Positions 3,645 to 40,375 of a stretch of DNA of 64,000 nucleotides are shown piece after piece (the stretch's first letter is position 1; each line of letters opens with the position of its first letter). The DNA comes from Luteibaculum oceani (GTDB taxonomy: Bacteria; Bacteroidota; Bacteroidia; Flavobacteriales_D; Luteibaculaceae). Both the position numbers and the translations under genes were made by a program. Location of the stretch: NCBI RefSeq assembly GCF_007995015.1, contig NZ_VORB01000009.1:1-64000 (forward strand). Reading direction: 5' to 3'. The notes under the pieces are model-generated. The model worked only from the letters and a program-made list of their open reading frames with translations, did no database searches and was not told where the DNA came from.

Positions 3645-6600
3645 TTACTTCACAATTATTATTCTGTGCATTGGTTCCAATGCCTTGTTTCTAAAGTCTA
3701 TTCTAAGAATATAGGATCCAGCAGCAAGGTTGCTTGTAGTAAGTCTTTTCCCAGAACCTGCAGTAATCATTTTACCGCTTTGATCAAAGATTTGAAGTTG
3801 TTCTATTTCTTCGGAAGTTTCTACTTTAACAAGACCTCCCGATTGAACTGGGTTAGGAACTACCTCTAAGTTAATTGATTGATTTTCAGTAATTCCTGTA
3901 GTTTGCCCGTATTTAAAGCTATATCCACTGGAAAAGCTTAAACATCCAAACTCATCTATTACACGCACTGCATAATCACCATCTACTTCAGGAACAAAGA
4001 AATAGTCGTTTGCTAACGCGATAGGAAGACCATCTAAGTACCACTGAATGTTGTAGCCAGCAGGTACATCTATTATTAGGCTGTCACCTTTTAGTTCAAC
4101 GGTTGGGATGATCATGGTGTCCATGATGTTTACCTCAATTTCAGCCGTACTGGCGGCACATCCAAACTGGTTGCGAACAACAGCTCCGTATTTACCAGAT
4201 TTGTTAACTACTACTGTATCCGAGTGTAGGGTGTTATCGTGGTTCCAAGTAACCGAGTGGTCGTTATTTACCAAGTAAATAGTTGGTGTTTGGTAATAGC
4301 AGTAGAACTCTTTTGCATTCAGCAATTTAATCTGAGGTGCAATAGGAACAGGATTAATTCCAACGGCAACGGTATCCGTGTAATTAATACAACCTTTGTT
4401 ATTGGTTAATCGAGCGAAGTACAATCCAGCAGTATTTACATTAAAAATCTTGCTGTTGTTTTGTGGGTTGTCTTGCCAGAAAGTGGTGTAATTGCCTGGT
4501 ACAATTAAGTTAATTGAAGCGCCAGCACAGAAATTAAACTGGCCAGTAGAGCTCTCGATAAACTTCTTCTCCGGTAGGGAGTATACTTCTATATTAACCG
4601 TGTCGGAAGTGCTTTTACATCCACCTGGATTTATAGAGGTCGCCCAATATTTAAGGGGGCTATATGCGTTAACAGTTAGGTCCGTGTTTCTATTGCCGGT
4701 ATTTCCATTCCAGTAGAAATCGTCGTTACCTGCATCGGCAGAAATCACTATAGAGTCTCCAAGACAGAAACCAAACTTATCCGCTGTAGTAATGACTGGT
4801 TTAACTGGGTCTGGGTAATCAATAAGTTGAAATTCTGCCGTATCTGAGTTACATCCATTACCATTAAAGTAATACACGGTATATTTTCCGTGGTTAGGGG
4901 TGCTAATGCTGTTGGCAGTATCTTTTGTATTCCATACATTTCCTCCGGGGCCTGTGTAGTTAGAGCTTAGCGTAGCCACAAATCCATCGCAAAGGAATTT
5001 GCCAATATTACTAGTAATTCTCGGGGCAGGAGGGATGGGGTAGCTTTTCACATCAAAGGCGGCAAGCGTATCTCCACAACCTTCTAAATCGGCGTAAACA
5101 CGGTAGGTTTCAGGCCAACGGATATTGGTGAAGGTGATAGAGGTGCCTGTTTCTCCAGGAATATTGTTCCAAACCTTGCGGTGGGCGTCGTATTTCTGCC
5201 ATTGCAGTTTACCAAGTGATCCAGTAACCGAAACGGTTAGGTCGCTGTATTTACATACTTGTTGTAGGCCTTGTAATGTTCCTGCTGCTGCTGGGGTTTT
5301 AGTAATAACATGTACATCATCTTCACCGTAGCAGCCGTTGTCGTCTACCACGCGAACTGTGTAATCTCCTGCAGCCGAGAAACTTGCTTCGTATACAAGG
5401 CTATCGGTATTACCACCTCCACCTTTTACAAATTGTCCGTCACCAAACCATTCGTAGCGTAGCACTCCGTTACCACCGTCTACATTCGCCTTTAATGTTG
5501 TAGCAAAATCTGGGCAGAGTATAGCGGTATCGTTTACGACATCTAATCCTTCTATAGTAGGAGTAGGATCGGGCTGGAAGCCAGTTCTAAACTTGTATAC
5601 GGTACATGGTTCGTTTACCTCCCCATTTTGATTGTATGGGGTTACCGTCCAGTAATACAGGGTGTTATGGTCGAGTTCATCGGGAAAGTTGTACCCTAGG
5701 TTGGGGCCAACATCGAATTTGTCTAGGATGTTATCGGGTGGATTATTGGTACCAAATGAGAGGTAATAACCCGATGCAGGGTCGGCTGAAGTATCAGCTG
5801 CCCACCTAAACATCAGATCTTTTTGACAGAGGTTAAATGTGTCATTTTTGGGTAGTACCGAGGAGTCGGGAATACAGGCAAGGAAAGTAGCTTTTTCTCC
5901 GGCAGCCGAAACAAAAATTTCATAATCCTCTACCTCTCCATTGTTAAACTTATCTCCACAGGCTCTCGGAGTACTTTGGGCTACAGTGGTTCTGATTCGC
6001 AGTCTTTTGCGGCCATCTGTTGCACTTAATGGAGCGGTAATCATGAATCTATGCCAGCGTGTGTGGCTATCTACTTGGTAAGTTTTGAAATCCATATAGG
6101 ACTCATCTGGGTCTTCGAAGTCGAAATCATTATTCCAGTCTATCCAGAGTCCACATGAAATGGGGAGTTCGTCGCTAAAACTATCCGCTCTTGTTACATA
6201 AACTTCGTATTCATTACCAGGTATCCAAGTGGGGGGGTATTTATATTTTTTGGTGTAATCTCCGTAGGATTGGGTGTTTCTACACTCGGGTAAGTCAGTT
6301 ACATTGGTAATTCCAGATCCATTTTCGCCGTCAATCTTAACCGTGTCAATGTAATGCCACTCGTATTTTGTTGGAAGCGATCCTCCATCTAAATCTAATC
6401 TAGATCCTCTACAATCTTTTGGTCCAGATGCTTTACAATATTCTGTTGCAGGTGGAGCTTCGGAGTAAACCAAAAGACCATAGTCCTCTGTTTCTCCAGT
6501 GTAGGTTGTGTCGCAAGGTCCTACTATTGTATCTGGAGTACTGTCTAAAAATCTGTTGCTTCCTAATACCGGTTCGGGTAGTCTGTTTTGTTGGAAAACT

Positions 6601-31196: not shown

Positions 31197-32130
31197 CTGG
31201 TCAGTAGTCAGTAGTCAGTAGTCAGTGGTTTAGTAGTTAGTTGTTGAGTTGTTAGCTCGTAGCTCAAAGCTCAAAGCTGAAAGTTGGAAGCTGAAAGCAC
31301 GAAGGGAATTGCGTTGGAGCTTTTGGGTCTCGGTTCTCGAGTGCACACGCATTGGCGTGGGTGTATCGAGAGAACTGGGGAGGGCGAGAATGAGAATGAG
31401 AATGAGTAGTTGATGGGCCTCATTCTAGCACTGTTTCTCGCTCTGGTATACGGGGTTTCCCTCTTCGCGATGCTACGTTCGTAATGACTGCGTTGGTTTG
31501 GTGGTCAAGGGTCAGGGGTCAGTAGTCAGTGGTTTAGTAGTTAGTGGTTGAGTGGTTAGCTCGTAGCTCAAAGCTCGAAGCTCAAAGCTGAAAGCTGAAA
31601 GCACGCAGCGAATGCAGTCTGCGCTATCGAATCTCGGTTCTCGAGTGCACACGCTTTGGCGTGGGTGTATCGAGAGAACGGGGGAGAGCGAGAATGAGAA
31701 TGAGAATGAGTTGTTGATGCACCTCATTCTCGCACTGTTTCTCGCTCTAGTAAACGGGGTTTCCCTCTTAGCTATGCTACGCTCGTAATGACCGCGTTGG
31801 TTTGGTGGTCAAGGGTCAGTGGTAAGTAGTCAGTGGTTTAGTAGTTAGTTGTTGAGTTGTTAGCTCGTAGCTCAAAGCTCAAAGCTCAAAGCTGAAAGTT
31901 GGAAGCTGAAAGCACGAAGGGAATTGCGTTGGAGCTTTTGGTTCTCGGTTCTCGAGTGCACACGCTTTGGCGTGGGTGTATCGAGAGAACGGGAGCAGAA
32001 CGAGGTTAGGTCTGAGATAAACCCTATGACACACTTTAGTGAACACAACCTTCTATCACCTGGGGCTGCCCAACCAGTATACCAGTCATCTAGTACACTA
32101 GTACACGAGAAAAGTTAACCGCTAGGCCTT
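31197..32130. repeat. Modular intergenic repeat array 1 (three units, terminal module at right)
   Basis: Three copies of an about 300-bp unit can be anchored on TCTCGGTTCTCGAGTGCA at 31328, 31632 and 31943 (periods 304 and 311 bp). Each copy has module A: GTCAGTGGTTTAGTAG and GCTCGTAGCTCAAAGC-type words, then an imperfect hairpin around GTTCTCGA...TCGAGAGAAC. Copies 1 and 2 continue into module B, a nested GAGAATGAG inverted repeat and an ATGCTACGCTCGTAATGA tail. Copy 3 instead continues into module C (about 31990-32130), with CACACTTTAGTGAACACA and CTAGTACACTAGTACACG. The array fills the space between the polysaccharide operon and the next gene and has no plausible coding content. Confidence 0.92.
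31685..31748. repeat. Nested perfect inverted repeat in module B (copy 2)
   Basis: The outer arms AGAGCGAGAA (31685-31694) and TTCTCGCTCT (31739-31748) pair perfectly. The inner arms GAGAATGAG (31702-31710) and CTCATTCTC (31723-31731) also pair perfectly around a 12-nt loop. The related copy 1 (about 31381-31444) keeps the layout with substitutions, and the copy at about 39776-39838 is more degraded. Confidence 0.85.
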
Positions 32131-32133
32131 TTC

Positions 32134-32200
32134 ATCTTTTCATCCTTCATCTTTTCATCCTTCATCCACTCATCCCTCCTCATCCGTTCACTCTTCACCC
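32134..32200. repeat. Pyrimidine-rich TTCATCC tract 1
   Basis: TTTTCATC, CTTCATCC and CACTCATCCC words run in a row after array 1. The same tract type follows array 2 (40255-40375), and its reverse complement fills part of 9423-9735. Confidence 0.85.
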
Positions 32201-33173: not shown

Positions 33174-34037
33174 TTATTCTAGAATCGGGTTGCTCATGGA
33201 TGTTTTACCAAATGATTTTTTCCCGGTTTTATGACAATATTTTTCAGGGTAATCTGGATTTCTATATTCATTCCAGGATAACCATGCTGTTTTACTTAGG
33301 GGCTCCTTTGGGTTGTATCTTATTTTTTTTCCTGTTCTAATGCAGTAACCAATACTTGGGTTTTGGGCCTCTTTCCTTACTCGAGTAGGACGTTTTAAAT
33401 CTTCTGATTCCCTTTCGATTTCTAAAGGGAAATCAGGGAGCTTTTTGGTTTCTGTTTCAAAGGTATGCCCACTGCTGTAATAATTTTTTGTGTGGTCAAC
33501 GATTACCTCGGATGTCACAAAATTTTTGCTAAGAGTAACTAATAGCTTTTTAGTGTGATATACCGGTCTTTTAATGAATACGACTTCATTAGTATCCGCA
33601 ATTTCGCGGCATTTGTTCCAAGCGTCATTATCTGCATTTGGTTTTAGTTTCCCGAAAATGTTTTGCTCGGAGAATACTCCAAACTCAATATTGTTCTTAA
33701 AGGAATGATCGTACAGATTAATAGAGGTAATTATCCCTTGTTTTTCATTGCCATAATATTTTGCATGTAGGTTGGGTACATAGATGATGCTTATGTTTTG
33801 GAACTGTTTAAAATAATCGAAGTCCCTTTTACTCAAACTCCGCCTTACATTGTTTTGATTTTTACCGAAAACAATGATGATGTGAAGCTTGTGGTTGTTG
33901 AGGTGCCTATCGAATAGTTTTTTAAAATAATCATCAAGTTTTATAAAGGGTGATACGATCATTAATATTCGGTCTGCTTCCCAAATGGTATCGTAAATAG
34001 CATTATCTAAGTCGTTCCCTGTTAAAAACTTACTCAT
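33174..34037 (-). CDS. Phospholipase D-fold protein with C-terminal knuckle-like motif
   Basis: The 287-residue soluble protein has a single PLD-type half-site: H91 and K93 in LHAKYYGNEKQ, followed by the GIITSINLYDHSF strand and E118 in NNIEFGVF. This fits the HxK(x)nS/N layout of HKD enzymes acting on DNA or phospholipids. HKD enzymes need two such sites, so it would act as a dimer. The C-terminal 60 residues carry two related motifs, YCIRTGKK (C232) and YCHKTGKK (C268), around NPDYPEKY. I read this as a knuckle-like module in which the second Cys of each CxxC has become Thr. It shares strand and region with the PLD-helicase/NUDIX genes upstream. Confidence 0.8.
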   Translation of the reverse strand: MSKFLTGNDLDNAIYDTIWEADRILMIVSPFIKLDDYFKKLFDRHLNNHKLHIIIVFGKNQNNVRRSLSKRDFDYFKQFQNISIIYVPNLHAKYYGNEKQGIITSINLYDHSFKNNIEFGVFSEQNIFGKLKPNADNDAWNKCREIADTNEVVFIKRPVYHTKKLLVTLSKNFVTSEVIVDHTKNYYSSGHTFETETKKLPDFPLEIERESEDLKRPTRVRKEAQNPSIGYCIRTGKKIRYNPKEPLSKTAWLSWNEYRNPDYPEKYCHKTGKKSFGKTSMSNPILE

Positions 34038-34557
34038 CTTTAAATAATTTCTTGACTACTTTGTAAAGTGTTGAAATGTTTTAAAACTAGCTTTAATAGC
34101 AAAATAAAGTCGTGAAAATAATAATATATGTGTTATGTAGTATTATTATTGGGTGTAAATGTAATCTACAAAAATAGGTTTTGGTCAATTCTTGATTATC
34201 CACCCATACATCGGGTTTTTGCAAAAGACACGGAAACCAGGTTAATTAATCTACCTACATATTTTTATCAGGAAAATTCACCCCCATTTATTCAATTCAT
34301 AGAGTCAAGGAATAAGGGTTCTTATTTCACTACTTATGTGAGTTTGGGGACTCTCCTGTTAGCAACTCCATTAAAAAAAACACCTAAATGCTCATCAACT
34401 ACAAAATTTTCAAATGGGAGGAGAAACGGGGATTGCCTACCGTTACTTAAAAATTACGAATGAATACTTATAGGGAGACATTTTGTACTACTCAAAAAAA
34501 TGATTGATTGCCTTAAAAAGGATATTTATCCGGGTGATTTTTGTTAGTATTATTAAA
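34038..34557. other. AT-rich intergenic region, 520 bp, no confident gene
   Basis: This gap lies between the two PLD genes, both on the minus strand. A plus-strand frame of 111 codons (34128-34463) is open, but its composition is not protein-like and it has no family resemblance I can see. A minus-strand TATTTTTG (34169-34176) fits a -7 box for the PLD gene but lacks a -33 partner. It may hold a leader, a small RNA or remnants of lost genes. Confidence 0.45.
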
Positions 34558-37500
34558 TTATCCTACTCTAAGTTTAGCAGCATCATGCCATAAGTAGTGT
34601 GGTAGAGGTTCTTTAAGTTTCCATTTAATATTCATCGGTTTGGTACCATAATGGTCCTCAATTGCCGCTTTTCCGCTAAATACGTAACCCATAGTATTTC
34701 CATATTCATCTTTGTTCTTTTCCCTGATGAATAGTAAAATATTTTTTCCATCATTTTTATGATTTATATAGGAAATTCCTTTTGGCGTATTGGGGCCAGC
34801 TGAATTTTGACTTTGCCAATGAAAAAGAGTTTCATTAATAGCATAGTCATCATACATTGTGGTTGGAGAGAAATTTTCTTCGGATTTTATGAGATTAATA
34901 AATAAAAGTTCCGTATTTAACTTTGGATTAAAAGCTACTCCTTCCCGACTAGATGATTTTTTCTCAAATGTACTTAGGCCAAAAGCAGCAAGAATTTGAT
35001 CTCTAGTATATCTTGAATGAACTTTCAGGGGTTGATTGTACGGAAGAGTTATATTAATCTCTTTGAAGTCTACTCTGTCTATCAATACCTCTAGTATTTC
35101 AATTATTTCATCAATCAATATTGGATTTTCTCCCAATTCTGAAATGCTTTCTTCCAATGATTGAAACCGACCAGCACTTTGCCATATGTCGTAGTGAAGC
35201 ATCAATAGCATTTTCTGTTGTGCTTCATTAAGTTCACTTGTTACACATTTAAATTGTCTTCTGGCTAAACTTAAAATGAATTTAAAATAGCTAGTTGAAC
35301 TGCAGGATAGCCATTTTTTTGAAATGGCAGTAACAATTTCTTTTTCATTTTTGGAATCAAATTCTTTAAGTGTGCCAGCCATTTGGCAAAGTCTCTTCCA
35401 TCCTCCTCGTTTATAAATTATTTGCAGGGGAATATTATAGAATTCAATGAAGTTTTTAAGGTTTAGTTCTAATGATGTATGGTTTTGAAAATGTTGGATT
35501 TTTAAAATGAGTTGGTTTCGGTTTAATGAAGTTGCTTTCGTAATATTTTCCAGTATGAAATTTTTAGCTTTTTTCTCTAAAATGATTGAACACCCTAATG
35601 GTAAATGAGGAAAATTATCTTCAATTTCTTTTATTACTGGAGTTTTGGTTTTACCAACTAAAGCCCTAAACTTTCCTTCAAAATTGTACTCAGGTCTTGC
35701 ATTTCCAACAAAGTCTAACACGGTTAAGGACTCTTTATTATCTGCAAGTCTTAATCCACGCCCCAGTTGCTGCAAGAAAATAGTAAGGCTTTCAGTTGGT
35801 CTCAAAAAAAGTACTGTATCTATTTCTGGAATGTCAACTCCTTCATTAAAAATATCAACTACAAACAAGTAGTTGATTTCCTTTTTCAAGAGTTTATTTT
35901 TAACTGTCCCTCTGAGATGAGTATTTTTACTGGTAAGGCAACTCGCTTTGTATCCGGCCAAATTAAATTTTTCCGCCATGTATTGAGCATGTTCTATGCT
36001 AACACAGAATCCTAATGCCCGTACATCTGATGGGTCTTTGGTGTATTTTTCCAGGGCGTCAAGTATTTCGTTAACTCTCCGATCATTTGCGGTGTAAATG
36101 GATGATAATTCGCTGGTAACATATCTACCTCGTTCCCAGCTAACTTTGGTAAGGTCTATACTGTCAGTAATCCCGAAGTATTGAAATGGACAAAGCAGTT
36201 TTCTGTTTAACGCCTCCGGCAATCTTATTTCAGCTGCAATTTTACCATGGAAATCTTCTAGGATATTACTACCATCCATTCTTTCGGGGGTAGCAGTTAG
36301 ACCTAAAAAAACTTTTGGCTTAAAATAATTGATAATTTTTCGATAAGAATTTGCAGTTAAATGATGGCATTCATCAATGACAATGAAATCATAATATTTA
36401 TCGGAAAGATTTAAGTTGTTTATCCTATTGTTTAGTGTTTGGATTGAAGCAAATACATGGTCAAAGCTGTCAGGAATATGACCGTCAACCCATAATTCCC
36501 CAAAATTGTTGTCTCTTAATATACCCTGATAGGTAGAGCGTGATTGTTCCAAAATTTCCTTACGATGGGCCAAGAATAAGAGTTTATCGGAGGATTTACT
36601 TCTAAACCTTTTGTAATCAAATGCTGAAATCACGGTTTTTCCTGTTCCGGTGGCGGCTACTATTAAATTTTTATTTCTATTGTGTAATAATCGTTCAACC
36701 TCGAGTTTTTCAAGAATCTCTTGCTGGAATGGATAAGGCTTTATTTCAAAATAATTGGATACTACTTGATTGGATTTGGTGCCTTTTCCTTGTTTTAATG
36801 AGTTAACCAGTTTTTCTTTATGGATGGTGTTGTCAAATTGTTCAAAATCACCACTTTGCCAGTAAGTATCAAATGTTTTTTGAAACTTAGAGATAATATG
36901 TCCCACCTCTTTAGTCGTAATTTTTAAATTCCACTCCAACCCATCGGTAAGGGCTGTCCTTGAAAAATTTGATGAACCAATGTATGCAGTATGAAACCCT
37001 GTATTTCTCTTGAAAAGGTATGCCTTAGCATGAAGTCTTTCATTACCTGTGTTGTATGAAATTTTTACTTGGGTATTTGGGAGTTCTGAAAGTAGTTGAA
37101 TTGCCTTATAATCTGAAGCACCCATGTAGGTAGTAGTAATTACCCTGAGTTTCCCTCCCTTTCGAGTAAACTCTTTAAGTTCCTTTAGAAGTATTATTAT
37201 TCCCTTAAATTTTATAAATGAAACTAGTAAATCAATTTCATTAGATGATAGAATTTCCTTTTTGAGTTCACTTTCTAACGATAACCCAGCATTCCCCCCC
37301 GTAAATAACTCGCTATGGGTAAGTCTTGTGTATGGAGTGATTTCTTTTAGGTGTAAATCCAGATTTGAGTAATCAGAATCAATTTTTGAAAATATTGCTT
37401 TCAAAATTTCTCCCTCTATTACAACTAAGTCGTTTTCAAACTCTTCATTTTCTAATTCTTTTTTTAGAAGTAGAATGATTTTATTGGCAATTTCGATTTG

Positions 37501-37695
37501 TAACGTAATTGAATTATCACCCTTAATATAATCCAAGGCGTACTTTATCGTTTGTGATAAATGTTTTGATAAAATAGTCGAAGCCTCCTCTTTGTCTAAT
37601 TTGCTGGTTTTAATGAAAAAGCTGCTTTTAACAACATTGTTTAATTGATGTTTTACCAATTTTGTAACAATCTCTTCGTAAATTCCTTCAATCAT
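34558..37695 (-). CDS. PLD nuclease-SF2 helicase fusion with DUF3427-type C-terminus
   Basis: The 1045-residue protein begins with a helical region, then a PLD nuclease domain (about 125-265) with H222 and K224 in LHAKAYLF and GSSNFSRTAL. An SF2 helicase core (about 320-680) shows Walker A AATGTGKT (347-354), DECHH (441-445), GLTATPERMDG (motif III) and QQLGRGLRL (motif VI). The C-terminal 350 residues resemble the DUF3427 region usually found with this fusion. It is probably a DNA translocase-nuclease. It overlaps the NUDIX gene by 4 bp (TGA/ATG), so the two are a coupled pair. Such PLD-helicases recur in defence-type gene clusters, but a phage-defence role here is inference. A run of seven G sits in codons 132-134. 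Confidence 0.93.
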   Translation of the reverse strand: MIEGIYEEIVTKLVKHQLNNVVKSSFFIKTSKLDKEEASTILSKHLSQTIKYALDYIKGDNSITLQIEIANKIILLLKKELENEEFENDLVVIEGEILKAIFSKIDSDYSNLDLHLKEITPYTRLTHSELFTGGNAGLSLESELKKEILSSNEIDLLVSFIKFKGIIILLKELKEFTRKGGKLRVITTTYMGASDYKAIQLLSELPNTQVKISYNTGNERLHAKAYLFKRNTGFHTAYIGSSNFSRTALTDGLEWNLKITTKEVGHIISKFQKTFDTYWQSGDFEQFDNTIHKEKLVNSLKQGKGTKSNQVVSNYFEIKPYPFQQEILEKLEVERLLHNRNKNLIVAATGTGKTVISAFDYKRFRSKSSDKLLFLAHRKEILEQSRSTYQGILRDNNFGELWVDGHIPDSFDHVFASIQTLNNRINNLNLSDKYYDFIVIDECHHLTANSYRKIINYFKPKVFLGLTATPERMDGSNILEDFHGKIAAEIRLPEALNRKLLCPFQYFGITDSIDLTKVSWERGRYVTSELSSIYTANDRRVNEILDALEKYTKDPSDVRALGFCVSIEHAQYMAEKFNLAGYKASCLTSKNTHLRGTVKNKLLKKEINYLFVVDIFNEGVDIPEIDTVLFLRPTESLTIFLQQLGRGLRLADNKESLTVLDFVGNARPEYNFEGKFRALVGKTKTPVIKEIEDNFPHLPLGCSIILEKKAKNFILENITKATSLNRNQLILKIQHFQNHTSLELNLKNFIEFYNIPLQIIYKRGGWKRLCQMAGTLKEFDSKNEKEIVTAISKKWLSCSSTSYFKFILSLARRQFKCVTSELNEAQQKMLLMLHYDIWQSAGRFQSLEESISELGENPILIDEIIEILEVLIDRVDFKEINITLPYNQPLKVHSRYTRDQILAAFGLSTFEKKSSSREGVAFNPKLNTELLFINLIKSEENFSPTTMYDDYAINETLFHWQSQNSAGPNTPKGISYINHKNDGKNILLFIREKNKDEYGNTMGYVFSGKAAIEDHYGTKPMNIKWKLKEPLPHYLWHDAAKLRVG

Positions 37696-38072
37696 ATCTT
37701 CAAATACTCTTTAACTATTGGTACATCAGCTTCGGCCCAATTCAATTTTAGAAGGTCTTTTTTTTGCAACCATAGGAATTTTTTATGTTCCGCTAATTTC
37801 AGTTCACCTCCCTTATGTACAGCAAGAAATGGGATAAGTTGAATTGATCTTTTGGGGTACTTATAAACACAAGGACTTAGTCTTTTCAATACTGTTATAT
37901 CTATGTTTAGCTCTTCTTTTATTTCTCTGATTATACAAGCCCGCTCACTCTCATTTGGTTCAATTTTTCCACCAGGAAATTCCCATTTATTTGGCAAGCT
38001 CATATTTTCGCTTCGCTGAACCACAAGAACTTTGTTGTTGGCTTCGATAAGAGCACAGGTTACCCGAATCAT
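37692..38072 (-). CDS. NUDIX hydrolase, MutT-like
   Basis: This 126-residue protein hydrolyses nucleoside diphosphate-X compounds; MutT-type members clean oxidised or non-canonical (d)NTPs. The Nudix box reads GGKIEPNESERACIIREIKEELNI, matching GX5EX7REUXEE with Asn replacing the usual Gly near the end. VLVVQRSENMSLPNKWEFPGG precedes it, as in the MutT/CTP-pyrophosphohydrolase group. I use the ATG at 38072, since longer starts add an unlike leader. Overlap with the helicase gene suggests the two act together, for example on phage-modified or damaged nucleotides, which is speculative. Confidence 0.9.
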   Translation of the reverse strand: MIRVTCALIEANNKVLVVQRSENMSLPNKWEFPGGKIEPNESERACIIREIKEELNIDITVLKRLSPCVYKYPKRSIQLIPFLAVHKGGELKLAEHKKFLWLQKKDLLKLNWAEADVPIVKEYLKI

Positions 38073-39505: not shown

Positions 39506-39599
39506 AATCGGGGTTGGTTATGGGATGGAAGATAGGGAATTAGGTCGTTTGGTGTTCGATAAAGGATTTTCACCACAGAGGCCACGGAGGAAATTGGAG

Positions 39600-40254
39600 C
39601 TGGTGGATGGTTAGTGGTCAGTGGTTTAGTAGTTAGTGGTTGAGTGGTTAGCTCGTAGTTGGTAGCTGGTAGCTCAAAGCTGGAAGCTGAAAGCACGAAG
39701 CGAATTGCGGTGGAGCTTTTGGTTTTCGGTTCTCGAGTGCACACGCTACGGCGTGGGTGTATCGAGAGAACGGGGGAGAGCGAGAATGAGAATGAGTTGT
39801 AGATGCCCCTTATACTAGCTTTGTTTCTCGCTTTGGCATACTGGGGTTTTTCTTATAGCATCGCTTCGATGGAGATGGCAGCGTTGGTTGAGTGGTTAAT
39901 GGTCAATGGTCAATGGTCAATGGTAAGTGGTTAGCTCAGAGTTCGTAGCTCCTAGCTCAAAGCTGAAAGTTGGAAGCTGAAAGTACGAAGGGAATTTCGT
40001 TGGAGCTTTTGGAACTCGGTTCTCGAGTGCACACGCTTTGGCGTGGGTGTATCGAGAGGACCTAAGCAGAACGAGATTAGGTCTGAAATAATCCCAATGA
40101 CACACTTTAGTGAACACAACCCTCAAAGCTAAAAGGAGGTAGCTACTTTCGGTTCTCGGTTTTACACCGAAAGAAAATTCTATCACTTGGGGCTGCCCAA
40201 CAATTATACCAGTTATTTAGTACACTAGTACACGAGAAAAGTTAACCGTAAGGC
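39600..40254. repeat. Modular intergenic repeat array 2 (two units, same orientation and terminal module)
   Basis: Two copies of the array 1 unit are anchored on CGGTTCTCGAGTGCACAC near 39727 and 40017 (period about 290 bp). The first has modules A and B, with B more degraded. The second has module A followed by module C (GACACACTTTAGTGAACACAACC, ...CTAGTACACTAGTACACG). Module C here carries an extra insertion of about 60 bp (40120-40177), which includes the short hairpin CTTTCGG...CCGAAAG. Order and orientation match array 1. Confidence 0.92.
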
Positions 40255-40375
40255 CTTTTCATTCCTTCATCCTTCATCCCTTCATCCTTCATCCTTCATC
40301 CCTTCATCTTTTCATCCCTTCATCCCTTCATCCTCTCATCTCCTCATCCTTCATCCCTTCATCTCTTCACTTCCT
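40255..40375. repeat. Pyrimidine-rich TTCATCC tract 2
   Basis: More than ten CTTCATCC/CCCTTCATC words run in tandem, ending shortly before the stop codon of the YggS gene. It matches the tract after array 1 and is the reverse complement of the GGATGAA tract at 9423-9735. Confidence 0.88.

Follow-up and report, generated by a model that had tools for sequence, protein, structure and literature searches.

Locus organisation and base composition

The window analysed here is the whole stretch of 64,000 nucleotides of Luteibaculum oceani DNA (contig NZ_VORB01000009.1), and the subject of this work is a block of three co-oriented minus-strand genes within it that includes a restriction enzyme of the SauUSI type and a NUDIX hydrolase encoded immediately upstream. 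In the direction of transcription, the first open reading frame (ORF) encodes the NUDIX hydrolase of 126 amino acids (aa) (37692..38072, with an ATG start at 38072), the second encodes a 1045-aa protein with a helicase motor (34558..37695), and the third encodes a stand-alone PLD-fold protein of 287 aa (33174..34037). A preliminary description of the locus, made from the letters alone, had listed the same three genes, and all of these coordinates were confirmed. At the junction of the first two genes (...AAGATATGATTG...), the TGA stop of the NUDIX gene and the ATG start of the helicase gene share 4 bp as ATGA (37692..37695, minus strand), as had been described; an identical overlap was read in five related loci (L060, L065–L068), and translational coupling of the two genes is likely from this arrangement. 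A gap of 520 bp, with no recognisable gene, separates the helicase gene from the stand-alone PLD gene downstream of it, and the 111-aa ORF on the opposite strand of this gap (34128–34463) matched no Pfam family.

The block has a GC content of 0.336, compared with 0.409 ± 0.008 for other 4.9-kb stretches, which bears out the A+T richness noticed previously. Its three genes have the three lowest GC values among the 44 ORFs of the window (about 0.335–0.35 versus a mean of 0.405), and the neighbours on either side have a normal base composition. Therefore, the three genes look like a single imported islet of about 4.9 kb amid ordinary genes. The GC content of the stand-alone PLD gene (0.352) is as low as that of the NUDIX–helicase pair, and this shared property suggests that it arrived together with the pair.

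The SauUSI-type restriction enzyme

Judged by its sequence, the product of the second gene (1045 aa) is a Type IV restriction enzyme of the SauUSI type, a family that the preliminary description had missed. PADLOC assigned it over almost its whole length to mREase_IV, the Type IV methyl-directed restriction enzymes (3e-232), and Pfam recognised an N-terminal PLDc_2 domain (6e-13), ResIII (9e-40), Helicase_C (3e-11), and DUF3427 (1.5e-29). By far the best relative in the PDB was SauUSI of Staphylococcus aureus (7CLG, 1.6e-89), in which, as in the window enzyme, one chain combines an N-terminal PLD nuclease with an HxK motif, an SF2 motor, a coupler, and a C-terminal SRA-fold reader (PMC7913695, PMC3874153). 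The two proteins share about 30–35% identity, and the clade of the window enzyme differs from SauUSI in a 140-residue N-terminal extension and two changed residues of the target-binding pocket. The nuclease HxK of the window enzyme (H222/K224) aligns to H119/K121 of SauUSI, and H222, K224, GSSN at 240–243, and E254 are invariant across the alignment, as expected for a PLD nuclease. The motifs of the SF2 motor (ATGTGKT, the DE-H box DECH, TATPER, and QQLGRGLR) are all conserved.

The C-terminal domain (residues 880–1045, encoded by 34561..35058, minus strand), a presumed reader of modified cytosine, has weak sequence similarity to SauUSI. Its fold was predicted by AlphaFold from 20 sequences (mean confidence score, pLDDT, 77), and the leading Foldseek hits of the model were all SRA-type readers, namely SauUSI (7CLG), SUVH6, MspJI, AbaSI, KRYPTONITE, TagI, and UHRF1. 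The pocket of SauUSI for 5-methylcytosine (5mC) is formed by Met829, Tyr831, Phe841, Ile842, Asp858, and Trp868 (PMC7913695); four of the six are kept in the window enzyme as F932, I933, D950, and W960. SauUSI cleaves DNA containing 5mC or 5-hydroxymethylcytosine (5hmC), and does not cleave DNA with glucosylated 5hmC (ghmC) or N4-methylcytosine (m4C) (PMC3874153). On the strength of this model, the window enzyme should read a modified cytosine, and from its sequence it is predicted to cut foreign DNA that carries one. Membership in the SauUSI family and the SRA fold thus favour the earlier suggestion that modified DNA is the target.

Members of a NUDIX-linked subclade (L081, L089, L090, and L091) are larger, with 1120–1160 aa, and carry a LexA-like Peptidase_S24 domain of about 150 aa fused C-terminally after DUF3427, suggesting that the nuclease could be under an SOS-type control. 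DISARM, considered on account of its DrmC component, was rejected, since the scanned block genes and their direct neighbours gave only DrmC matches of 1e-4 and no other Drm protein.

Relatives of the window enzyme were found in 38 of the 395 genomes of the class, with up to 77% identity and in scattered families, and also on plasmids of Pseudoalteromonas, Hymenobacter, lactobacilli, and others. The SauUSI-like gene is accessory and mobile, in agreement with the proposal that the helicase–NUDIX pair is of a defence type. In many genomes, it forms an islet amid housekeeping genes rather than part of a large defence island. One relative without the gene retains an intergenic relic of 28 aa, 82% identical to the helicase C-terminus (L078, 5650–5733; G036:C180:24649-24732), which by its sequence is a trace of the loss of the same islet. 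An HNH_2 endonuclease gene stands just 3' of the SauUSI-like gene in two loci, co-directional in L062 (6200–7159, minus strand) and convergent in L071 (4490–5446, plus strand), and an HNH gene likewise follows the SauUSI-like gene on a Pseudoalteromonas plasmid (L252).

The NUDIX hydrolase and its predicted substrate

The product of the first gene was recognised by Pfam as NUDIX (2.4e-18), and its best NCBIfam model was NudG (PRK10546), although with a score under the cut-off (92.6 versus 156 bits). Its relatives in the PDB were S. aureus 5X1X (4e-27), NudG (2RRK, 2e-19), and Bacteroides fragilis 3GWY (1e-17). NudG/Orf135 and the B. fragilis enzyme (Q5LBB1) resemble the window protein in overall sequence, in the Nudix box, and in the Asp at the base-recognition position; they differ in that they have not been reported as restriction partners, and the window copy is nearer to 5X1X than to 3GWY. 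The position equivalent to Asn119 of MutT is occupied by Asp in NudG, in 3GWY, and in every NUDIX encoded in an operon with a SauUSI-like gene, and by Asn in MutT alone. This residue speaks against an assignment as a MutT-type 8-oxo-dGTPase.

NudG is a 5-methyl-dCTPase (PMC5158307, PMC3744803), and the B. fragilis enzyme hydrolyses 5-methyl-dCTP and 5-hydroxymethyl-dCTP at 4.8e6 and 4.4e6 per M per s, respectively (PMC5158307), while the rate of MutT on 5-methyl-dCTP (2.8e3) is lower by a factor of at least one hundred. Based on these likenesses, the window protein is predicted to be a NudG-like pyrophosphatase of C5-modified (d)CTP, which probably destroys modified-cytosine nucleotides. Taken together, the chemistry of NudG and 3GWY and the specificity of SauUSI would therefore make the nucleotides removed by the NUDIX enzyme the precursors of the bases that are restricted as foreign.

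In PADLOC, the window NUDIX matched PDC-S07 (5e-48), which consists of a NUDIX protein alone, is named apart from mREase_IV, and has no function in the library. PDC-S07 has been reported as a phage-defence candidate in Streptococcus thermophilus (PMC11514479).

Association of the NUDIX gene with SauUSI-like enzymes

Among 53 full-length SauUSI-like proteins, a NUDIX gene was immediately upstream in 32 and immediately downstream in 4; it was absent in 14, and 3 could not be assessed. Thus, 36 of the 50 assessable SauUSI-like genes, from several phyla, have an adjacent NUDIX. Its presence is clustered on the enzyme tree, requiring 8 changes versus 15.1 in shuffles (none of 500 as low). The NUDIX and enzyme distances are correlated within two clades (r = 0.73 and 0.74; none of 2000 permutations as high), shared ancestry being a contributor to such correlations.

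The SauUSI gene of S. aureus itself has a NUDIX gene immediately upstream, as does the window enzyme. In one S. aureus locus (L307), the SauUSI gene is 100% identical to 7CLG over 53–349 and the upstream NUDIX (4556–4957) is 100% identical to the 'MutT' structure 5X1X over 5–125; in another (L297), the corresponding values over the same segments are 98.7% and 96.7% (NUDIX at 2068–2466). In the phage collection, the pair-bearing records L297–L301 carry the label UNVERIFIED and could be contigs of bacterial origin. The annotation of the NUDIX in the S. aureus record is (deoxy)nucleoside triphosphate pyrophosphohydrolase. The structure paper on SauUSI makes no mention of a NUDIX, MutT, or pyrophosphohydrolase (PMC7913695), and full-text searches of the open-access literature found no paper linking SauUSI with a NUDIX neighbour. 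We regard the NUDIX gene as a genuine partner of the SauUSI-type enzyme. In L307, the SauUSI gene was found twice, in inverted orientation and interrupted.

Another pyrophosphohydrolase was found in the same setting. In two lactobacilli, a MazG-like gene (PF12643), whose fold is unrelated to NUDIX, lies directly 3' of the restriction gene of the NUDIX/SauUSI-like pair (L257, 5661–5981; L305, 5918–6229), and related MazG ORFs are a few kb from the pair in L083, L095, and L167. Human DCTPP1 belongs to the MazG superfamily, as does the PF12643-type enzyme of lactobacilli. DCTPP1 is a 5-methyl-dCTPase (PMC10742078).

In four loci, a truncated ORF resembling Vsr, the endonuclease of 5mC-deamination repair, lies directly upstream of the NUDIX gene (L069, 7340–7516; L070, 7230–7535; L242, 7759–7962; L314, 409–633, minus strand); these ORFs were recognised by sequence and not by a family scan. 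Such remnants look as if the NUDIX cassette had been inserted at former C5-methylation systems. On the Selenomonas plasmid pSRC2 (L303, 4992–8490), a NudG-like NUDIX gene has a nucleoside 2-deoxyribosyltransferase nearby and a DUF262 (GmrSD-type) protein encoded a few genes away, and no SauUSI-like gene was present in the stretch read.

Proposed role of the pair and competing explanations

We propose that the pair combines a modification-dependent restriction enzyme with a nucleotide-pool cleaner that prevents the cell from building modified cytosine into its genome, and we put the probability of this explanation at about 55%. From the homology to SauUSI, the predicted fold, and the intact motifs, we infer that the SRA-fold domain would bind C5-modified cytosine in incoming DNA, whereupon the SF2 motor would translocate and two PLD domains would dimerise and then cut. 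Shredding of modified phage or plasmid DNA would release modified dCMP, which salvage kinases could convert to the dNTP, and a polymerase could then insert it in the host chromosome, so that self DNA would become a target. 5-Methyl-dCTP is known to be incorporated into DNA by polymerases and is thought to stem mainly from degraded methylated DNA (PMC10742078). The NUDIX enzyme would break this loop, providing a nuclease with self-protection that does not require a methyltransferase. We infer the modification read by the window enzyme, the substrate of its NUDIX partner, and the protective role from the combined analysis.

Several observations weigh against this proposal. The measured C5-dCTPase activities are only those of the relatives NudG and 3GWY. 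In the clade of the window enzyme, Met829 and Tyr831 of the SauUSI pocket are replaced by Glu and Val, respectively, and therefore the recognised modification could differ from that of SauUSI. The 14 SauUSI-like genes without an adjacent NUDIX include close relatives of the window enzyme (L059, L061, L063, and L064), and no compensating close NUDIX was found elsewhere in these four genomes at the threshold used. Close relatives of the window NUDIX, in turn, also stand alone amid housekeeping genes; apart from the truncated Vsr-like ORF in L314, no other modification-dependent nuclease was seen beside them. Finally, enzyme-bearing genomes are not depleted in C5-cytosine methyltransferases, which were found in 14 of 38 (37%) compared with 51 of 122 controls (42%); the host genome itself, in keeping with the proposal, gave no match to PF00145 at E ≤ 1e-20, as was the case for most control genomes. 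Such NUDIX-less enzymes, lone NUDIX genes, and undepleted methyltransferases weaken the claim of an obligate antidote, and they are compatible with a helpful but dispensable partner.

Alternatively, the NUDIX enzyme could be an offensive arm that destroys modified dCTPs made by a phage, such as 5-hydroxymethyl-dCTP, leaving the phage to starve or to use plain cytosine. The similar rates of the B. fragilis enzyme with 5-methyl- and 5-hydroxymethyl-dCTP are in line with this possibility, and a change in the 5-hydroxymethyl-dCTP pool has been proposed in a 2025 review as a possible point of phage detection (PMC12707154). However, a phage pushed to unmodified DNA would escape the partner nuclease, which would make the coupling of the two genes odd, and SauUSI also restricts plasmids and other transferred DNA. 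We therefore consider an offensive role unlikely, while it is the most credible of the alternatives.

Another option is a general house-cleaner acting on 8-oxo-dGTP, (p)ppGpp, or other compounds, which hitch-hikes with the restriction gene and has no specific link to restriction. NUDIX specificity is hard to predict, and both the stand-alone relatives amid housekeeping genes and the SauUSI-like genes lacking a NUDIX neighbour fit such a role. Nevertheless, adjacency in 36 of 50 cases over several phyla, both upstream and downstream, the tight gene overlap, the correlated distances, and the fact that each operonic copy has Asp instead of the Asn that determines specificity in MutT make chance company quite improbable.

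It is less probable still that the NUDIX protein regulates the nuclease, either by binding it or by altering a nucleotide that gates its ATPase, given that SauUSI, which uses ATP or dATP, is active by itself in vitro and in Escherichia coli clones (PMC3874153); translational coupling and co-evolution would be expected in that case too, and the LexA-like S24 peptidase domain of some clade-B enzymes indicates that regulation does occur in the family.

Self-protection by a pool cleaner thus remains the preferred explanation for the pair. Its extension to the whole family, according to which SauUSI-type restriction would be a two-gene nuclease/cleaner system where a dedicated C5-modified-dCTP pyrophosphatase secures self/non-self discrimination at the nucleotide pool and not by methyltransferase marking, is more tentative, and we rate its chances at somewhat less than even. 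The class of SauUSI-type Type IV enzymes is known; the conserved NUDIX partner and its pool-guardian role are undescribed in the literature searched. In S. aureus, SauUSI has been described as a major obstacle to horizontal gene transfer; its structure is solved, and the structure of its NUDIX neighbour, 5X1X, was deposited separately. If the NUDIX enzyme does protect the host from its nuclease, this would explain how such enzymes are tolerated, loss of the cleaner would be predicted to be toxic, and the PADLOC candidate PDC-S07 would gain a function.

The stand-alone PLD nuclease

The 287-aa protein encoded by the third gene scored under the Pfam cut-off (22.9 versus 27 bits), and its profile gave no useful match among PDB sequences. 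Its AlphaFold model (pLDDT 87) best matched BfiI, NucT, Nuc, and SauUSI in the PDB; with BfiI, NucT, and Nuc it shares the fold and an HKD-type active site. The catalytic residues H91, K93, N107, and E118 are kept in all members of the family. Thus, the HKD fold proposed in the preliminary description was borne out, whereas the tail that was taken for knuckle-like is a decayed zinc ribbon, reading CIRT/CHKT in the window and CIRC/CYSC/CHSC/CLDC, with intact CxxC, in a relative (L025). The protein is distinguished from BfiI and other stand-alone PLD proteins by the lack of a B3 reader domain, by this tail, and by the diverse defence-island context of its family.

A genome-wide scan revealed 417 confirmed relatives, and the neighbourhoods of the best 80 were surveyed. 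GmrSD-like genes occur in 7 of them, and Type I restriction genes, Druantia-like genes, and others were seen as well. A set of defence queries matched 20 of these 80 neighbourhoods and none of 20 arbitrary 20-kb control regions, a contrast that is qualitative, since the queries were partly drawn from the same neighbourhoods. GmrSD/DUF262-type proteins or Type I restriction–modification operons stand beside the PLD gene in L137, L138, L140, L146 (−1), L127, L159 (+1), and L144 (+2), and McrC, identified by sequence resemblance and not by a family scan, adjoins it in L025 and L026.

The PLD gene is near a SauUSI-like pair in three loci only: the window, genome G037 (L079/L155), where the order is PLD, a DUF1036 ORF, NUDIX, and enzyme, and a Crocinitomicaceae genome (L167), where the PLD gene is on the opposite strand. 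The first suggestion, a three-component system in which it would be an indispensable subunit alongside the helicase and the NUDIX enzyme, is not supported and is the least probable of the explanations considered: despite its intact catalytic residues, its low GC content, and its co-location with the pair in two further genomes, it is absent from all remaining helicase loci examined, its order and strand differ in L167 and G037, L079 and L167 are close relatives by tree, its family accompanies several other systems, and its co-occurrence with the helicase by genome, 6 versus 3.7 expected, is near chance. The stand-alone PLD protein is a promiscuous defence nuclease and no fixed subunit, and it is probably independent defence cargo; in the proposed scheme, it would be a nuclease in its own right that was imported within the same low-GC islet. 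Altogether, the earlier description of the locus is partly supported.

Flanking repeats and other features of the window

Scanning of the window for RNA families revealed a single tRNA and nothing more, and no more promoter and terminator signals were found than in shuffles. Repeat comparison identified an array of three 300-nt units at 31198..32112 and a second one with related units at 39594..40124. The two flanking arrays do resemble each other, as had been reported. However, the 300-nt unit is an intergenic repeat with 22 matches across the genome, including a further array at C9:75.4-75.9 kb, and because the unit is so dispersed, the arrays do not delimit the island and were ruled out as its boundaries. 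In addition, a 117-nt direct repeat (32051–32167 and 40178–40294) with 90% identity between its copies, 8127 bp apart, encloses the islet and its neighbours and is a possible recombination site.

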